DNA from: a virus
Length of the DNA: 25,253 nt
IMG/VR virus record: IMGVR_UViG_3300042445_003597
Coordinates: 1 to 25,253 of that record
Strand: one strand, 5' to 3'
Every line of letters starts with the position of its first letter. The stretch's first letter is position 1. The notes below the pieces were generated by a model. That model searched no databases and had not been told where the DNA came from. It saw only the letters and a program-made list of their open reading frames with translations. Both the position numbers and the translations under genes were made by a program. Positions 295 through 19,270 of this stretch are shown here, in pieces.

Positions 295-1176
295 ATGTCA
301 CAGGAAGAGACGAGCATCGACGGACTAGAAGTTCAAAATGATGCTCCTGAAGTACAAGAGAACGATAACGTTCTGGAACTGCCAAAGTTTGAAGAGAAGC
401 CAGAGTTTAAACCTCACCCGGCTCACGAAAAGCTTTTGGCAGAGCTGCCAGAAGCATGGCACCAAAAAGTTATTCCGTTCCTGCAGGAACAGGACAAAGC
501 TTACCAAAGTCAGCTTGAAAAGTTTTCACCATACAAAGACTTTATTGATAACGAAGTTGACCCAGCCTACTTGCAGCAAAGCGTTGAGCTAGCTAGGGCG
601 ATCTCTGAAGATCCTCTAACTATTCACGAAAACTTGACTGCTGCTCTTATGCAGCAAGGTTTGTTAAAAGCTGAAGCTGAAGCTGCTGCAGCTGATGTTA
701 TGTCTGAAGAAGGTTTCTTTGACGATGAGTCAGACTTGCCGGACGGTGTGAAGAAACAGCTTGATGCACAAAACCAGCAACTTAAAGAAATGCAAGAGTT
801 TATGCAAAGCCAACAGTTAGAGAGAGAAACTGAGGTTGAGTATGCTCGCATCGAAAACGAGTTTGCTGGTCTTCGCGACGTGTACAGTGTAACCCCACAG
901 CAAGAGACGGCAATCATTGAGTTGATGGAAGCCGGTCTTGCACGCGGAGAAGATCTATCCGTAATTGATGCAGCAAAGAAACTTGTTGCCATCACCGGTG
1001 TAGGTTTTCAGCGTCTTGGCGCAAACCAACAGTCCGCAAATGCGCCTGTAGTTTTAGGTGCCGGCAGCGGAGTCCCATTTGAGTCAGTTCAAATCCCTAA
1101 GGACGAGAAGGGCAAGAAAGAAATGCTTGCCAAACTGTTTGAACAAAACCAAAAACAGTCACCAAACTCGCTGTAA
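295..1176 (+). CDS. Capsid scaffolding protein
   Basis: A 293-aa, strongly acidic, Glu/Gln-rich protein without recognisable enzyme motifs. Residues about 120-185 are rich in Ala, Glu and Gln (runs such as KAEAEAAAADVMSEEGF and QLKEMQEFMQSQQLERETEVEYA) and look like coiled coil. The C-terminus ends in a Lys/Gln-rich helix (KKEMLAKLFEQNQKQ), as expected for the coat-binding tail of scaffolds. Size, charge and position between portal and major capsid gene point to an internal scaffold that guides procapsid assembly and then leaves. It starts two bases after the portal stop, so it is probably translated with it. Identification is from composition and gene order, not from a specific motif. Confidence 0.78.
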   Translation: MSQEETSIDGLEVQNDAPEVQENDNVLELPKFEEKPEFKPHPAHEKLLAELPEAWHQKVIPFLQEQDKAYQSQLEKFSPYKDFIDNEVDPAYLQQSVELARAISEDPLTIHENLTAALMQQGLLKAEAEAAAADVMSEEGFFDDESDLPDGVKKQLDAQNQQLKEMQEFMQSQQLERETEVEYARIENEFAGLRDVYSVTPQQETAIIELMEAGLARGEDLSVIDAAKKLVAITGVGFQRLGANQQSANAPVVLGAGSGVPFESVQIPKDEKGKKEMLAKLFEQNQKQSPNSL

Positions 1177-1187
1177 CTAAAGCTAAC

Positions 1188-1224
1188 AAAAACCCCAACA
1201 TCCAAAGTGTTGGGGTTTTTGTTT
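1188..1224 (+). terminator. Intrinsic terminator after scaffold gene
   Basis: A perfect 13-bp inverted repeat (1188-1200 AAAAACCCCAACA and 1208-1220) with a 7-nt loop TCCAAAG and a U-rich end. It separates portal/scaffold transcription from the capsid transcript. The last T of its T-run (1220) is also the first base of the parS site. Confidence 0.9.
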
Positions 1225-1235
1225 CACGTGAAACA
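1220..1235. promoter_or_regulatory. parS centromere-like site (ParB-binding), perfect consensus
   Basis: The bases are TGTTTCACGTGAAACA, a perfect 16-bp palindrome identical to the consensus parS bound by chromosomal ParB (Spo0J) proteins across bacteria, including actinobacteria. It is non-coding, directly abuts the scaffold terminator on its left, and sits just upstream of the predicted capsid promoter on its right. No parA or parB gene is present in this window, so the natural reader would be the host ParB or a ParB encoded elsewhere in the phage. I found no second full copy in the window. Confidence 0.85.
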
Positions 1236-1253
1236 TATGATACGCTAGAAGTG
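1236..1253 (+). promoter_or_regulatory. Predicted capsid promoter -10 region
   Basis: TATGAT (1236-1241) and the overlapping alternative TACGCT (1241-1246, followed by AGAA as in other promoters here) are good -10 candidates immediately downstream of parS. Transcription would start at about 1248-1253, giving a roughly 100-nt leader before the strong ribosome site of the capsid gene. The -35 is weak (GGGTTT or TTGTTT, depending on which -10 is used), and parS occupies the spacer. A promoter is expected here because the upstream transcript is terminated at 1188-1224. Confidence 0.5.
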
Positions 1254-1350
1254 TCTAAGTACAGCTTTTAACGAAGTCAGGGCATCAGACGTAGTGCGCT
1301 CGCACATTTATCTATTTATTCACTCAACTATCCCTTAGGAGGGAAAACAC

Positions 1351-2583
1351 ATGGCTGGACAGTCCATACTGACCTTTGCATCTGATGCAATCAAGCTAGT
1401 GTACGGTGACCTTCACGAGCAGCTGCGCGACAAGAACCCTGCGCTGCAACTCATTGAAGCATCATCCGCACACATCACCCGTAACGGTAAAGAAGTAATC
1501 TTCGACACCCACATCGGACGCAACCAAGGTATTGGTGCTCGCGGAGTTCGCGAAGTACTACCTACCGCTGGTGCACAGAAGTACAAGCAAGCTCACCTAT
1601 ACCTAACGAACCTATACGGTTCGATCGAGGTTGACGGTCAGCTATTCGAACAAGCTGCTGAAGACTACCAAGCCTTCATCAACGTTGTTGACAACGAAAT
1701 CCGTGGTCTAAAGAAGGACCTTGCTAAGGACCTAAACCGTCAGGTTTACGGCGACGGATCTGGAAAGCTAGCTGTTGTTTCAGCTCAGCCTTCATCTTCA
1801 ACTCTTACCGTTGACTCAGTTAACTGGCTAGAAGAAGGTATGATCGTTGACATTGTTGACCCTACCACTGGTGTTAAGCAACAGTCAGGTGCAGCAAGCT
1901 CGATTGAAATCACAGCAATTAACGAAACCACCAACGTAATCACGGTGACCGGTACCCTTGGTACCTTCAGCACCAACATTAGCGCTGGCGACATTCTAGT
2001 TCGTTCTTCCAACGGAGTAAACTCCTTCGGCAAGGAATGGACCGGTCTAGGTGCTATCGTTAGCGCTACCAGCGAGTTGCACGGCATCAACCCAGCATCA
2101 TACCCGATCTGGAAGTCAACCGTTGAAACTCTCGGAACTCCGGGAACCTCAACCGGTACCCTAACCGAGCTTGCTCTTATCAACCTAGTACAAAAGGTTG
2201 ACAAGAAGGGTGGCGACGTGGACGTAATGCTAGCATCTCCGGGCGTATTCAACGCTTACTGGGATCTACTACAAGGTCTACGCCAGTTCACCAACGGTGC
2301 AACCCTTGAAGGTGGACAGCGAGCATTCTCGTTCGACGCCGTAGGTAAGCCAATCAAGTTCGTTTCGGACTACGCTGCACCTAAGGGTACAGTCTACGCT
2401 CTATCGAGCAAGGAAATCGTAGTTAACCGTAAGAAGGACTGGTCTTGGATGGACCGCGATGGTTCGATGTGGTCACGTCTTGCAGACACCGACGCATACG
2501 AAGCTCGTATCTTCCAGTACAGCCAGCTTGGTACGTACCGTCGTAACGCTCACGCTGTTCTATCGAACATCACTGAGAAGTAA
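1351..2583 (+). CDS. Major capsid protein (HK97-fold-like)
   Basis: 410 aa, preceded by an excellent ribosome site (AGGAGGG 1337-1343, 7 nt from ATG). The N-terminal half carries motifs I associate with podovirus capsid proteins: LREKNPAL-like DKNPALQLIE, RNGKEVIFDTHIGRNQG, a P-domain/spine helix near residues 110-140 (VDNEIRGLKKDLAKDLNRQVYGDGSG), and a late GLRQFTNGATLEGGQ segment. Residues about 150-210 form a Thr/Val-rich beta insertion that may be an accessory I-domain. It builds the icosahedral shell. Leucine is encoded mostly by CTA with some CTT and very little CTG, and most choices are uniform (GTT, AAC, TAC, AAG), consistent with the most highly expressed gene of the phage. It is flanked by terminators on both sides. 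Confidence 0.88.
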   Translation: MAGQSILTFASDAIKLVYGDLHEQLRDKNPALQLIEASSAHITRNGKEVIFDTHIGRNQGIGARGVREVLPTAGAQKYKQAHLYLTNLYGSIEVDGQLFEQAAEDYQAFINVVDNEIRGLKKDLAKDLNRQVYGDGSGKLAVVSAQPSSSTLTVDSVNWLEEGMIVDIVDPTTGVKQQSGAASSIEITAINETTNVITVTGTLGTFSTNISAGDILVRSSNGVNSFGKEWTGLGAIVSATSELHGINPASYPIWKSTVETLGTPGTSTGTLTELALINLVQKVDKKGGDVDVMLASPGVFNAYWDLLQGLRQFTNGATLEGGQRAFSFDAVGKPIKFVSDYAAPKGTVYALSSKEIVVNRKKDWSWMDRDGSMWSRLADTDAYEARIFQYSQLGTYRRNAHAVLSNITEK

Positions 2584-3753: not shown

Positions 3754-5317
3754 CCTATTACGACAACGTTCAGCAACACTTAAAGACTTTTCCGGTGGTT
3801 TAAATAACTACTGGGACCCGTCATCCATTGCAGAAAACGAAGTCTCATACCTGATCAACATGGAGTTTTCACCAAACGGTGCCCTAGTCTCCAGACCAGC
3901 AATCAGCGAAACAACACTGCCACAAATCCCAGCAAGCGGTACACCACTATACATTGATATCCTCGGATACTTCACCCCGTCGGGTGGTGACCGTTACATA
4001 ATTGCTACAGCTGGCACCAAAACTTACCGACTAAACCTTGACGCCGTAACCCCAGCATGGACTGAACTATGGGCTTCAAAAGCAACCGGTTACGTCCAAT
4101 ACGACAACAAAGTTATTCTTTGCAAAGCAACAACCGGTGGCGCAAGATGGGCTGTCGGAGACGCTAGCGTAACCGCTATCACAACCATGCCCGCGCTTGA
4201 CGGTTTAGTTGTATACCAGTCACGTTTCTTCGGTTGGGGTGTAAGAGGAACAGCCACCGACACCAAAGTGTATTACAGCGACCTAACCACAATCACCACA
4301 CCATTAGGTGTGTACGACTGGAACGTAGACTCTGTAATTAACGTAGGGTTAGGTGACGGTCAATCAATCTCTGGCATCCTAATCGACTACAGTAAGATCT
4401 TTATCTTCAAATCAGCATCAACTTACGCTTTCTCATTCAGCGAACTACCTGAAGAGGGAACACTGTCGCTGATCCAACAAGGTATTGGGGCAGAAAACAA
4501 AAACTGTATTGCCAACTACCAAAACGGTTATGTTGTATTACATGATCAGATCGTTTACCGGTTTCAAAACGGACAGTTTAGCCCGCTAAATGCACAACGA
4601 GTAAACTTTAAACCATTCAACAGCGCTTACCAAAAAGACTTCACCGTGTCAGTGTTTGGTGACCGTGCAATCATCTGGTTCAGCGGATCAATCTATGCTT
4701 TAAACTTGCTTACCGGAACTTGGGCGCAATGGGAATCAACCACAGAAATCGCTCACATTTTCCAAACACCACAAAAATCTTCAACCATTAAACAACACGA
4801 AACAGCGTATGCAATCACAGGGTCAAACACAACCAGTAAATGGAAACTTTACCAAATGGACAATTCACCCGTAACAACTAACGCTGCAGAAGTGTTTACG
4901 TGTAAGCTCCGCACCAGAATTTACGACTTTGACACTCCTGCAGAATGGAAACGTTTATATTGGTGGGCTGCTGATGTTGCAGCAGACGGTGTTATTACAG
5001 CAACTGTTACCGCAATCGCAGCTTCTTCAAACGTTCGTTCATGGGATCAGATCTCAACAAGCACTTGGGATGTTCTTTCAACCCTTACGTGGGATAAGTT
5101 GCTTTCCGAGGACCCTTATGTCACTACAGAACGCACTATTGATGAAGGTGCTCCGCAACGTGCTTTACTCAAACTTGAACACAGTATTCGCTTTAGACGC
5201 GCATATTTTGAGGTATACTTTAGTTGTGATGGTACAGCCGAGACGTCCCCAGCACAAATTTTCAGTATCACACCAATGATTGGTGTGAAAGCTAAGTTAA
5301 CTAAGGGCGTAGCATAA
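3746..5317 (+). CDS. Tail nozzle / stabilisation-type beta-propeller protein
   Basis: 523 aa from a GTG start that overlaps the end of the adaptor gene. The N-terminus LKDFSGGLNNYWDPSSIAENEVSYLINM followed by G-A-L-V-S-R-P is the typical opening of podovirus tail nozzle or tail-tube-B-like proteins (D-F-S-G-G-L-N ... N-E-x-x-x-L-x-N ... G-x-L-x-x-R). The rest is beta-rich with repeated Trp/Tyr strands, consistent with a propeller. It would close the short tail below the adaptor and act as the DNA gate. From about base 4900 (last 130-145 residues) third-base use changes from A/C-rich to T/G-rich, suggesting a recombinant C-terminus. Confidence 0.68.
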   Translation: MSDLLRQRSATLKDFSGGLNNYWDPSSIAENEVSYLINMEFSPNGALVSRPAISETTLPQIPASGTPLYIDILGYFTPSGGDRYIIATAGTKTYRLNLDAVTPAWTELWASKATGYVQYDNKVILCKATTGGARWAVGDASVTAITTMPALDGLVVYQSRFFGWGVRGTATDTKVYYSDLTTITTPLGVYDWNVDSVINVGLGDGQSISGILIDYSKIFIFKSASTYAFSFSELPEEGTLSLIQQGIGAENKNCIANYQNGYVVLHDQIVYRFQNGQFSPLNAQRVNFKPFNSAYQKDFTVSVFGDRAIIWFSGSIYALNLLTGTWAQWESTTEIAHIFQTPQKSSTIKQHETAYAITGSNTTSKWKLYQMDNSPVTTNAAEVFTCKLRTRIYDFDTPAEWKRLYWWAADVAADGVITATVTAIAASSNVRSWDQISTSTWDVLSTLTWDKLLSEDPYVTTERTIDEGAPQRALLKLEHSIRFRRAYFEVYFSCDGTAETSPAQIFSITPMIGVKAKLTKGVA

Positions 5318-5535
5318 TGGCAAGTTATGGAGCACCAAGCTTCAATGAGTTTGCTGCCGGAGCGAAAGTTTACGGTGGTGGGCGAATGAACCCTACCATG
5401 GGTCCAGTTGATAAAACTGGTTACGCTGAGCGTGACCGTAAACGTAAAGTTCGTCGTAACGCTTTGCTTGCACGTCTAAAAGCTAAGCAAAAAGGTGCTT
5501 ATGCTAGCTCTAATGCGTTAAAGGGTGGCATGTAA
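5317..5535 (+). CDS. Small basic virion-region protein, unknown
   Basis: 72 aa, start overlapping the previous stop (TAATGG). Gly-rich N-terminal half and a strongly basic stretch (ERDRKRKVRRNALLARLKAKQKG). No known motif. Its place between nozzle and internal virion genes, and its charge, fit a small DNA-associated or internal head protein, but that is a guess. Third-position base use is T/G-rich, unlike the genes before 4.9 kb. Confidence 0.6.
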   Translation: MASYGAPSFNEFAAGAKVYGGGRMNPTMGPVDKTGYAERDRKRKVRRNALLARLKAKQKGAYASSNALKGGM

Positions 5536-6050
5536 TGGCTAAACCTAACACAAATCCTACCGATGTTGAACTTCAAAACACTGGAGTTTACCGTGACGCT
5601 CTTGCCCCTTACCGTTCAGATTTTCGTTCAAACCAAAACGCTGAACTACAACGCATCAACGAACTTAACCAAAACATTTATGGTCAAAGCGGTCAGTTAG
5701 AAAACTTTAACGCTTCAGCTAGTGACGCTTTGCGTCGGTTAGCAGCCCAATATGCTATGCGCGGTATGTTGCAAAGCGGTGGTTACGGTGGTATGGAACG
5801 TGGTGCTGCTGTTCAAACACAGAAGCAACAAGCCGGTCAACGTAAGCAGATCGAACAACCTTACATGAGTGCCACTAATGCTGAACGTTTAGGTCAGTTT
5901 GGTTTGAACCAAGTTGGTACTGACCCTAATGCTCTTGTAGGTATGCAACAAGACTTTGACTGGTTGACAACTAACGCAGGTCAAGCAGCTCGTGCACGCG
6001 CACTTGCTGAAGCACGTAACTCGTGGCTAACCGGAAGGGTAACAGTCTAA
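5535..6050 (+). CDS. Putative internal virion protein, Gln/Ala-rich
   Basis: 171 aa with TAATG overlap at both ends. Asn/Gln/Ala-rich and predicted largely helical (ELQRINELNQNIYGQSGQLENF, ASDALRRLAAQYAMRGMLQSGG). The segment AAQYAMRGMLQSGGYG is reminiscent of the R-G-x-x-x-S-G motifs in phage proteins that sit next to the giant ejected proteins, but I cannot assign a family. Probably virion-associated, by context. Confidence 0.58.
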   Translation: MAKPNTNPTDVELQNTGVYRDALAPYRSDFRSNQNAELQRINELNQNIYGQSGQLENFNASASDALRRLAAQYAMRGMLQSGGYGGMERGAAVQTQKQQAGQRKQIEQPYMSATNAERLGQFGLNQVGTDPNALVGMQQDFDWLTTNAGQAARARALAEARNSWLTGRVTV

Positions 6051-7270
6051 TGGATCCAGAAGACGAATTTGCAATCTTAAACCCAGTAAAATACGGTGTT
6101 GGTCCTTGGTGGAACAGCCTATTTAACGCTGGCGGAAAAGCTGTAGCTAACATTTTTGACCCAGCTGCCACTGGGCGCCCATCAAATTACTACGGCATGA
6201 CCACTTCGCCAATGAAAGACCCAACCCGAGCTGGTAACAACAAAGACTACGAACGTCCGACTATTCCGGGCGTAGACCCAATCCTGCCCCCTTCCACTGG
6301 CGAAAACATGCAAAGCGACGCATACCTGAACATGCTGTACGGTCTGCTAAAGCAAAGCCAAGGTGGAGGCAGTTACGGATCAGCGCTAAGCTCAATCGGA
6401 AACGAACGTAAAGGCGTTAACAAGCGTTACAAAGAAAATCAAGCGGACATAAAAAATATGTTTGGCAACCTTACCACTATGCGTCGAGGTGACATAGCCG
6501 GAGTAAGTTCTCTAGCAGAAACCGGTCGTGCAAAAAGTGCAGAACAAACTGCTGCACAAGCGACACAAACCCGTGACGCTGAAGCACAACGCCTAGCAGC
6601 AGCAAACCAAGCACGAGCTGCACTAGGTTTAGGTGACATTGCTGGAGCTGCAGCCGGTGGCGACCTAGCAACACAAGCAGCTGAAGCAGGTTTAGCTGAC
6701 CAAGGCTCACTAGCCCAGATCGGTCGAACCGCTAGCGAAGTAAACCAAAACATTACTGAGCAAGCAATCAACGACGAAATCGCCCGTTACTCAACCGACC
6801 AAAACCTTGCACTGCAAGAACTCGGTCGCAGCAGAACCGGCGCACTAAGCGACATTTCTGGGCGTGAACAACAAATCCTCATGCAGCAAGCTGCAGCACA
6901 ACAAGCTGCACAACAAGCAAACACACAACTACAGTTGCAAATTGCTGGACTTGTCAACGAATACGAAGCTGGAAAACTACAAGCAAACACCCCAACCGGT
7001 GTGCTAGGTAAATGGCTATCTGAATACGGTGGCAACGACCCTGCAGCTGGAGCAGCAGCATCAACCGCTTCCGCTTCATTCTGGAACTGGATTCAAAGCG
7101 CAGACAACCTTATGGGCAAAGATGGTAAGCCTATGGACGCCATTAATGCTGTAAGCGCTTTTGCAAAATATGACCCAGAAACTGCAAAGCTAATTCAAGG
7201 AAACCCATCATTGAACTTCTTGCTCACCGGAATCTGGAACAGCGCCCTTACTAAGCCTGCAACTAAGTAA
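6050..7270 (+). CDS. Putative internal/ejected virion protein, coiled-coil rich
   Basis: 406 aa from ATG 6050, which overlaps the previous TAA by one base and has GGAAGGG at 6033-6039 as ribosome site; an in-frame GTG at 6023 is less likely. The middle (about residues 130-310) is Ala/Gln-rich coiled coil (for example QQAAAQQAAQQANTQLQLQIAGL). The segment RGDIAGVSSLAETGRAKSAEQ resembles the low-complexity helices of internal virion proteins that are ejected with DNA. It ends 31 bases before the first giant gene. The assignment is from composition and position. Confidence 0.6.
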   Translation: MDPEDEFAILNPVKYGVGPWWNSLFNAGGKAVANIFDPAATGRPSNYYGMTTSPMKDPTRAGNNKDYERPTIPGVDPILPPSTGENMQSDAYLNMLYGLLKQSQGGGSYGSALSSIGNERKGVNKRYKENQADIKNMFGNLTTMRRGDIAGVSSLAETGRAKSAEQTAAQATQTRDAEAQRLAAANQARAALGLGDIAGAAAGGDLATQAAEAGLADQGSLAQIGRTASEVNQNITEQAINDEIARYSTDQNLALQELGRSRTGALSDISGREQQILMQQAAAQQAAQQANTQLQLQIAGLVNEYEAGKLQANTPTGVLGKWLSEYGGNDPAAGAAASTASASFWNWIQSADNLMGKDGKPMDAINAVSAFAKYDPETAKLIQGNPSLNFLLTGIWNSALTKPATK

Positions 7271-18039: not shown

Positions 18040-18786
18040 TTAATCTTCCTTCAAAACAGGTGTAACATCAAAAACCGTCTCAGACACAAGTATATCATCA
18101 GGTTGCGGTTCCGCGATCACAGACAACGGACCAGCACCAGAAGCCAACGCCACCAACTCACGCCCAATATTACGTTTCGTAATCGGATCACGCACATGCC
18201 TCAACACAATATCCTGCACCTGCAACAACAAAGCCGGCACATCCACACCCTGACGCGAATTAGCATCAAACCTACCAGTCAACTGATTAACAAAAGTAAT
18301 CGCCTTCATATCACCCTGCTGCACCAACTGACCCAAAGCCTGATCAGCCAACGGCAAAAACTTCTTCAAATTCTCCGCAGACTTAGCCTCCATAGCAGCA
18401 GCAAAATGCTTCTCACGCATCCACCCATCCAACTCCAAAGCACCAATCTTCAACTGCCTAGCAATCACAGCCGGCTGCTTCAAATTCAACGGATTCAAAT
18501 AAGCTTGCAAAAAATTCTCTTGACGCAACGAAAGATTAGGGTCCGTCGTCGTCTTAATCCCACGGTCAGCCAAAGCACGCTGAAACTTCGACGCACCCCA
18601 AACAAGCTGAACCTCCTCCAACCCCAAACTGGCATCTTGGTCCAAAACAACACTAGGCTCAACGAAAAAACCACGCCGGTCCGCCGCGATTGCCGCAGCC
18701 AATACACGTTCAAAAAGGGCACGCTCCTTCGACCTCTTCTCATCATCCAACCTACTCTCAAACCTAGAAACATCCAACTCAGACAC
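18040..18786 (-). CDS. Small-terminase-like DNA-binding protein (homeodomain/HTH)
   Basis: 248 aa from GTG 18786, which overlaps the last codons of the XRE gene and has GGAGGG upstream; a longer ATG start at 18888 would add 34 Trp/Arg-rich residues inside the XRE gene and is unlikely. Residues about 86-133 read LSLRQENFLQAYLNP...QPAVIARQLKIGALELDGWMREKHFAAAM, the HTH opening seen in phage small terminase subunits (phBC6A51-like). Residues about 140-175 continue with a helical region and QGDMKAITFVNQLTGRFD, also common in that family. It would recognise packaging sites. Its location on the opposite strand to the head genes, behind a regulator, is unusual. Confidence 0.55.
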   Translation of the reverse strand: MSELDVSRFESRLDDEKRSKERALFERVLAAAIAADRRGFFVEPSVVLDQDASLGLEEVQLVWGASKFQRALADRGIKTTTDPNLSLRQENFLQAYLNPLNLKQPAVIARQLKIGALELDGWMREKHFAAAMEAKSAENLKKFLPLADQALGQLVQQGDMKAITFVNQLTGRFDANSRQGVDVPALLLQVQDIVLRHVRDPITKRNIGRELVALASGAGPLSVIAEPQPDDILVSETVFDVTPVLKED

Positions 18787-19270
18787 GAGGCAAACCCTCC
18801 AACGCAACAACATACTCAGCCGAACAACCCAAACGCTCCACCAACCGTTTAGACACAACCTCCGGAAAACCAACCAACCCAGCCTCATACCGAGACACCA
18901 CAGCCGGATTCACACGCAACAAAGACCCCAACTCAGTCACCGACCGAGCCACATCCCCACGCCAAACCCTAAACGAAGGATAATACTGACCCAACAAATA
19001 AGGAGGAATAGCTAAAACATTCGCCACAGACGACTTAACCTGTGCCCCAACACCCAACCAACCAACAATACGAGCCCTAAGCTCACCAACAGAAACACCC
19101 AAACCATCCGACAAAACCTCCAACACACGATCACTAGGCATACGAGTACGCCCATCCTCAACAGCAGTCACAGCAGAACGATTAACACCAGCCCTAGAAG
19201 CCAACTCAACCTGCGACCAACCCAACTCCAAACGACACAAACGCACCGGATGATCCACAATCCTAGCCAT
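18779..19270 (-). CDS. Tandem XRE-type HTH regulator
   Basis: 163 aa with two helix-turn-helix domains. The first (about residues 8-65) reads RLCRLELGWSQVELASRAGVNRSAVTAVEDGR, a clear XRE fold. The second (about 100-158) contains ELGSLLRVNPAVVSRYEAGLVGFP. No protease or oligomerisation domain is seen. A symmetric site 23-38 bp upstream of its ATG (19293-19308) is a good autoregulatory operator. It heads the leftward fibre-lysis operon and has AAGGTGG as ribosome site. It could be a lysogeny-type repressor or a timing regulator for the operon; the absence of an integrase in the window leaves this open. Confidence 0.8.
   Translation of the reverse strand: MARIVDHPVRLCRLELGWSQVELASRAGVNRSAVTAVEDGRTRMPSDRVLEVLSDGLGVSVGELRARIVGWLGVGAQVKSSVANVLAIPPYLLGQYYPSFRVWRGDVARSVTELGSLLRVNPAVVSRYEAGLVGFPEVVSKRLVERLGCSAEYVVALEGLPRV

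Follow-up and report, generated by a model that had tools for sequence, protein, structure and literature searches.

An Orphan Host-Type parS Site at a Phage Capsid Promoter: A Candidate Loading Site for Host ParB

The Capsid Gene Locus

The window analyzed here, an entire IMG/VR record (25,253 bases), is a fragment of a tailed-phage genome. It runs from the end of a portal gene through a scaffold-like open reading frame (ORF) and the major capsid gene into further structural and internal-virion-like genes, followed by a lysis region on the reverse strand and an early region on the forward strand. The following features lie around the start of the capsid gene.

295–1176, forward strand: scaffold-like structural gene, 5′ of the terminator (phrog_33339, annotated function unknown)
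About 1185–1223, forward strand: intrinsic terminator hairpin, AAAAACCCCAACA-loop-TGTTGGGGTTTTT, where the upstream operon ends (the stem prediction is listed on the reverse strand; the hairpin is symmetrical)
1220–1235, no strand assigned: chromosomal-type parS palindrome TGTTTCACGTGAAACA, exact, 0 mismatches
1238–1246, forward strand: extended −10 TG-A-TACGCT of the capsid-gene promoter, aligned with the conserved TGnTAnnnT of relatives
1259–1283, forward strand: conserved 5′ leader element of the capsid mRNA, GTACAGC-N10-GTCAGGGC, near-invariant in 24 aligned relatives
1351–2583, forward strand: major capsid protein gene (phrog_14242 major head protein, E = 6e-96)

The location of the first gene between those for portal and capsid suggests that it encodes the scaffold. 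The chromosomal parS consensus is TGTTNCACGTGAAACA (PMC7022226), and the 16-mer at 1220–1235 fits that palindrome with 0 mismatches. A first-pass annotation of this DNA had described an exact, noncoding and single parS palindrome of 16 bp that was very unlikely to match by chance, and our analysis agrees on each point. The site is the only match in the window at three or fewer mismatches (shuffled sequences gave a mean of 0.19), it overlaps no ORF of 60 or more amino acids (it falls between the end of the preceding gene, at 1176, and the start of the capsid gene, at 1351), and the chance of one exact 16-mer in 25 kb is P ~6e-6. The window record and three contigs of the same type (L002–L004) contain one parS each, with about one-quarter of the genome lying outside these sequences.

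The site is embedded in transcription signals. The U-tract of the terminator adjoins and overlaps its 5′ bases, a gap of 2 bases separates its end from the TG of the extended −10, and it spans the capsid promoter's −35/−10 spacer region; TTGTTT at 1219–1224, a weak −35-like sequence, would fall almost wholly within it. The extended −10 and the leader element precede the capsid gene throughout the capsid family. The leader element occurs once in the window and is nearly invariant at the corresponding position of some 70 related loci despite unalignable flanking DNA; it had no match in Rfam and showed no covariation as an RNA structure, and it may act in translation or bind an activator.

By capsid protein, the closest isolates are Jasminevirus-group phages of Arthrobacter (~40% identity), together with Microbacterium and Cellulosimicrobium phages, which points to an actinobacterium as the probable host. 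When bacterial genomes were scanned twice for relatives of the capsid, none was found. The same phage species has, 5′ of its terminase region, a gene for tRNA-Gln (TTG) at L345 5036–5108 (contig L003), a possible host marker. The early region of the window contains two intergenic direct-repeat pairs that are 91–95% identical (19807–19853/20763–20809 and 20654–20695/22437–22478), which are probably repeated promoters or terminators.

Partition and Integration Genes

The window record and 11 relatives of 42–46 kb were searched for partition and integration genes. No match over cut-off was found to ParB_N (PF02195), to ParA (AAA_31, PF13614) or to HTH_ParB (PF17762), for which there was a single below-cut-off match, and there was no match to tyrosine integrase; the genome of the window species is itself incomplete, and the absence of ParB there covers the sequenced part. 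The window thus lacks ParA and ParB genes, as first noted, and the accompanying proposal of a plasmid-like prophage finds no support in either the record or its relatives; a prophage or plasmid lifestyle was rejected on this basis.

The same pattern extends to other carriers of the site. ParB_N was over cut-off in three of 80 parS-bearing IMG/VR records, with a weak match in one more, and these same four matches are the ones found among the 28 parS records of at least 30 kb; none of the three over cut-off belongs to the window species. Among isolates, ParB_N was present in KaiHaiDragon and not found in Woes, Huntingdon, OneinaGillian, Voltaire, B103, phi29, DSS3P8, Bacchae or Arian.

Distribution of parS in the Capsid Family

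The capsid family was represented by 80 viral contigs encoding a related capsid protein. Exact parS occurs at the same place in four of them (L002–L005), whose capsid protein is identical to that of the window and whose DNA is 98.9–100% identical; the five contigs with the window-type site are too similar to one another to reveal purifying selection on it. No other family contig has parS in this intergenic region, not even those that keep the flanks at ~84% DNA identity, and the site is therefore dispensable to the lineage. The nearest match in most other family loci is 4–6 mismatches away, which leaves no trail of degenerating copies. A conserved parS position 5′ of the capsid gene was accordingly rejected; the terminator-parS-capsid arrangement, whose conservation in relatives had been put forward as a check, is confined to near-identical contigs (at least 98.9% DNA identity).

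A sister lineage carries parS elsewhere, ~3.5 kb 5′ of the capsid gene, exact in L061 and with one mismatch in L060. Here the site lies within a small ORF after the terminase gene and is read in frame as VSRET. The two small ORFs share ~55% protein identity; their site codons are identical save for the last base, and the adjacent codons differ synonymously. The ORFs belong to a CxxC-containing family found after the large terminase gene (L061 6325–6765 and homologues), two members of which have an in-frame parS. From these comparisons, the family acquired parS on two or more occasions, each at its own location, and the window site is no ancestral fixture; such a history suits a position-independent DNA signal. 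The first-pass annotation had held that absence of the site from close relatives with conserved flanks would refute its inference. Formally, that is the pattern seen at ~84% DNA identity, but the criterion asks too much, since parS turns up elsewhere in the sister lineage, and position-independent gain fits better than chance.

Enrichment of parS among Viral Sequences

In IMG/VR, parS was found in at least 120 stretches, compared with 10 and 6 for two composition-matched palindromes. A near-neighbor control with only the two central bases changed, TGTTTCATATGAAACA, also reached at least 120 stretches; raw counts were therefore insufficient, and both were compared with a fixed flank, which gave 41 stretches for parS and two for the altered palindrome. 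The excess over control palindromes in viral contigs is thus ~20-fold or more. Dividing 41 and 102 flank-matched stretches by the chance frequencies of the flanks gives a rough estimate of 4,000–7,000 parS stretches in IMG/VR as a whole. The parS query hit 315 deposited phage records, against 0 and 5 for the controls; these records, mostly from Listeria, Microbacterium, Arthrobacter, Gordonia, Bacillus and Lactobacillus phages, are redundant, and some of the Listeria assemblies may contain host DNA. Enterobacterial phages are absent from the ten commonest groups among them; Enterobacteriaceae are without chromosomal par genes (PMC7022226).

A sample of 180 IMG/VR parS loci fell into 106 DNA clusters, and many lineages are therefore involved. 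Most loci (154 of 180) have a single copy, and some contigs have 3–6. Four (L097, L124, L143 and L133) carry 3–5 exact copies within a few kb and could be misclassified host origin regions or multi-parS phages. An extended −10 stands beside parS at two of 104 sites, compared with ~1.4% expected at random positions, and promoter placement was rejected as a general rule for parS; since the motif survey reveals no general tie to promoters, the position in the window may be merely a permissive slot. The general enrichment argues strongly that orphan parS in phages is real.

Comparison with Known Systems

The closest parallel is the virulent phage phi29, whose genome (NC_011048) contains four TGTTTCACGTGGAACA sites, each near-perfect parS. 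According to the account in PMC9437464 of Meijer et al. 2005, Spo0J captures the phi29 genome into the Bacillus subtilis prespore. The window phage resembles phi29 as a virulent phage that has host-type parS without a ParB of its own. It differs in having one exact site, at a capsid promoter, rather than four, and in belonging to an unrelated family, probably of actinobacteria, whereas the host of phi29 sporulates. Actinobacteria, including Arthrobacter and Microbacterium, do not form endospores.

The window site has the same consensus sequence as the chromosomal parS of host ParABS systems, but it is a single copy on phage DNA and is not near oriC or parAB. Mycobacteriophage RedRock has genes for ParA and ParB, together with iterons of an 8-bp motif (PMC7157519); prophage cassettes of this type likewise place a centromere site on phage DNA, whereas the window phage has neither parA nor parB and its site is of host type. 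More similar are the Korravirus group and the Glutamicibacter phage Voltaire, actinobacterial phages with intergenic host-type parS and no ParB. The Korravirus locus, common to 105 Arthrobacter records, is flanked by DNA polymerase I and a PurA-like gene. Its 14-bp core GTTTCACGTGAAAC is intact in eight of eight aligned genomes (79–100% identity), and the outer base pair of the site changes symmetrically between T-A and C-G; parS is thus kept across that genus, whereas the window site is restricted to its lineage. In Voltaire, an intergenic gap contains a tandem pair of exact parS. In Gordonia phage Woes (L217), the sites at 2581 and 3002 each center a longer perfect palindrome, the arms of which differ; its relative Bianmat (L232) is without these sites in the matched stretch.

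Possible Functions of the Site

With CTP bound, ParB loads onto DNA at parS and spreads along it as a clamp; the loaded DNA is then acted on by ParA and SMC (PMC12704722; PMC7022226). By analogy, host ParB very probably binds the candidate site at 1220–1235. Recruitment of host ParB is the best supported part of the earlier interpretation, on the strength of the enrichment over controls, the lack of a phage ParB, the parS of the sister lineage and the precedent of phi29. We give a roughly even chance to the fuller proposal that the 16-mer is an orphan parS of host type onto which host ParB loads, with the phage DNA treated as a host centromere. During infection, host ParB-CTP would nucleate at 1220–1235, close into clamps and spread along the phage DNA; the loaded genome would be bound by ParA on the nucleoid and perhaps loaded with SMC. 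Phage DNA might then be kept with the nucleoid or partitioned to daughter cells during slow or stalled lytic growth, a fate resembling that of the phi29 genome captured by Spo0J. The outcome of loading in this phage could be, for example, piggyback segregation or capsid repression, and the case for a segregation or positioning benefit to the phage seems evenly balanced.

The transcription signals around the site allow another reading, in which parS is an operator: ParB over the −35/−10 spacer would block the capsid promoter and delay late expression for as long as it occupied the phage genome. The upstream terminator would make this promoter the main source of capsid transcript, parS overlaps the promoter between terminator and extended −10, and in Pseudomonas aeruginosa ParB represses promoters adjacent to intergenic parS3 and parS4 (PMC5521831). 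Yet the pairing of parS with an extended −10 is not enriched in the survey, the sister lineage carries its parS inside a gene, 3.5 kb away from that for the capsid, and all relatives retain the promoter without parS, so that we regard an operator as unlikely. It is quite improbable that the site is a decoy that titrates host ParB or diverts SMC, disturbing host segregation to the advantage of the phage. Orphan parS in many phages without ParB, and contigs with several copies, would suit such a role, but one site per genome is few against the several parS of a chromosome, unless high phage copy number compensates, and most loci are single-copy.

The remaining alternatives deny the site its parS identity or any function. 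The palindrome might bind another protein (a phage repressor, some other host regulator or a phage ParB-like protein encoded in the missing part of the genome), with the likeness to parS incidental or convergent; the record is a fragment, and it encodes a repressor-like HTH gene at 18779–19270. We consider this very improbable, since the full-length relatives gave no match over cut-off to ParB_N, ParA or HTH_ParB, the enrichment is specific to CACGTG-centered parS, and a repressor operator is normally repeated and conserved alongside its promoter. Chance occurrence without function would be consistent with the lack of conservation at ~84% DNA identity, but the controls imply that at most ~5% of viral-contig parS arise by chance, and chance would have had to strike twice in one phage family of ~0.9 Mb total; it is extremely improbable. 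Loading of host ParB is therefore the reading we prefer.

Biological Implications

Our search of the openly licensed literature, to which it was confined, found no paper on orphan parS in phages beyond phi29, and phi29 with its spore-forming host was the sole case found of a phage using host ParB through parS. Orphan parS is well in excess of its matched controls and occurs in phages that infect Microbacterium, Arthrobacter, Gordonia, lactobacilli, roseobacters and many uncultured hosts, which suggests that hijacked chromosome segregation is a general phage trick. A stronger version, in which orphan host-type parS is a widespread and repeatedly evolved strategy in non-sporulating bacteria that here also gates capsid expression, is put forward tentatively and with some doubt. 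If the general idea is true, phages carrying on the order of thousands of IMG/VR stretches would use borrowed host ParB to position, retain or pass on their own DNA, and this hijacking would be directly testable in cultured phages.
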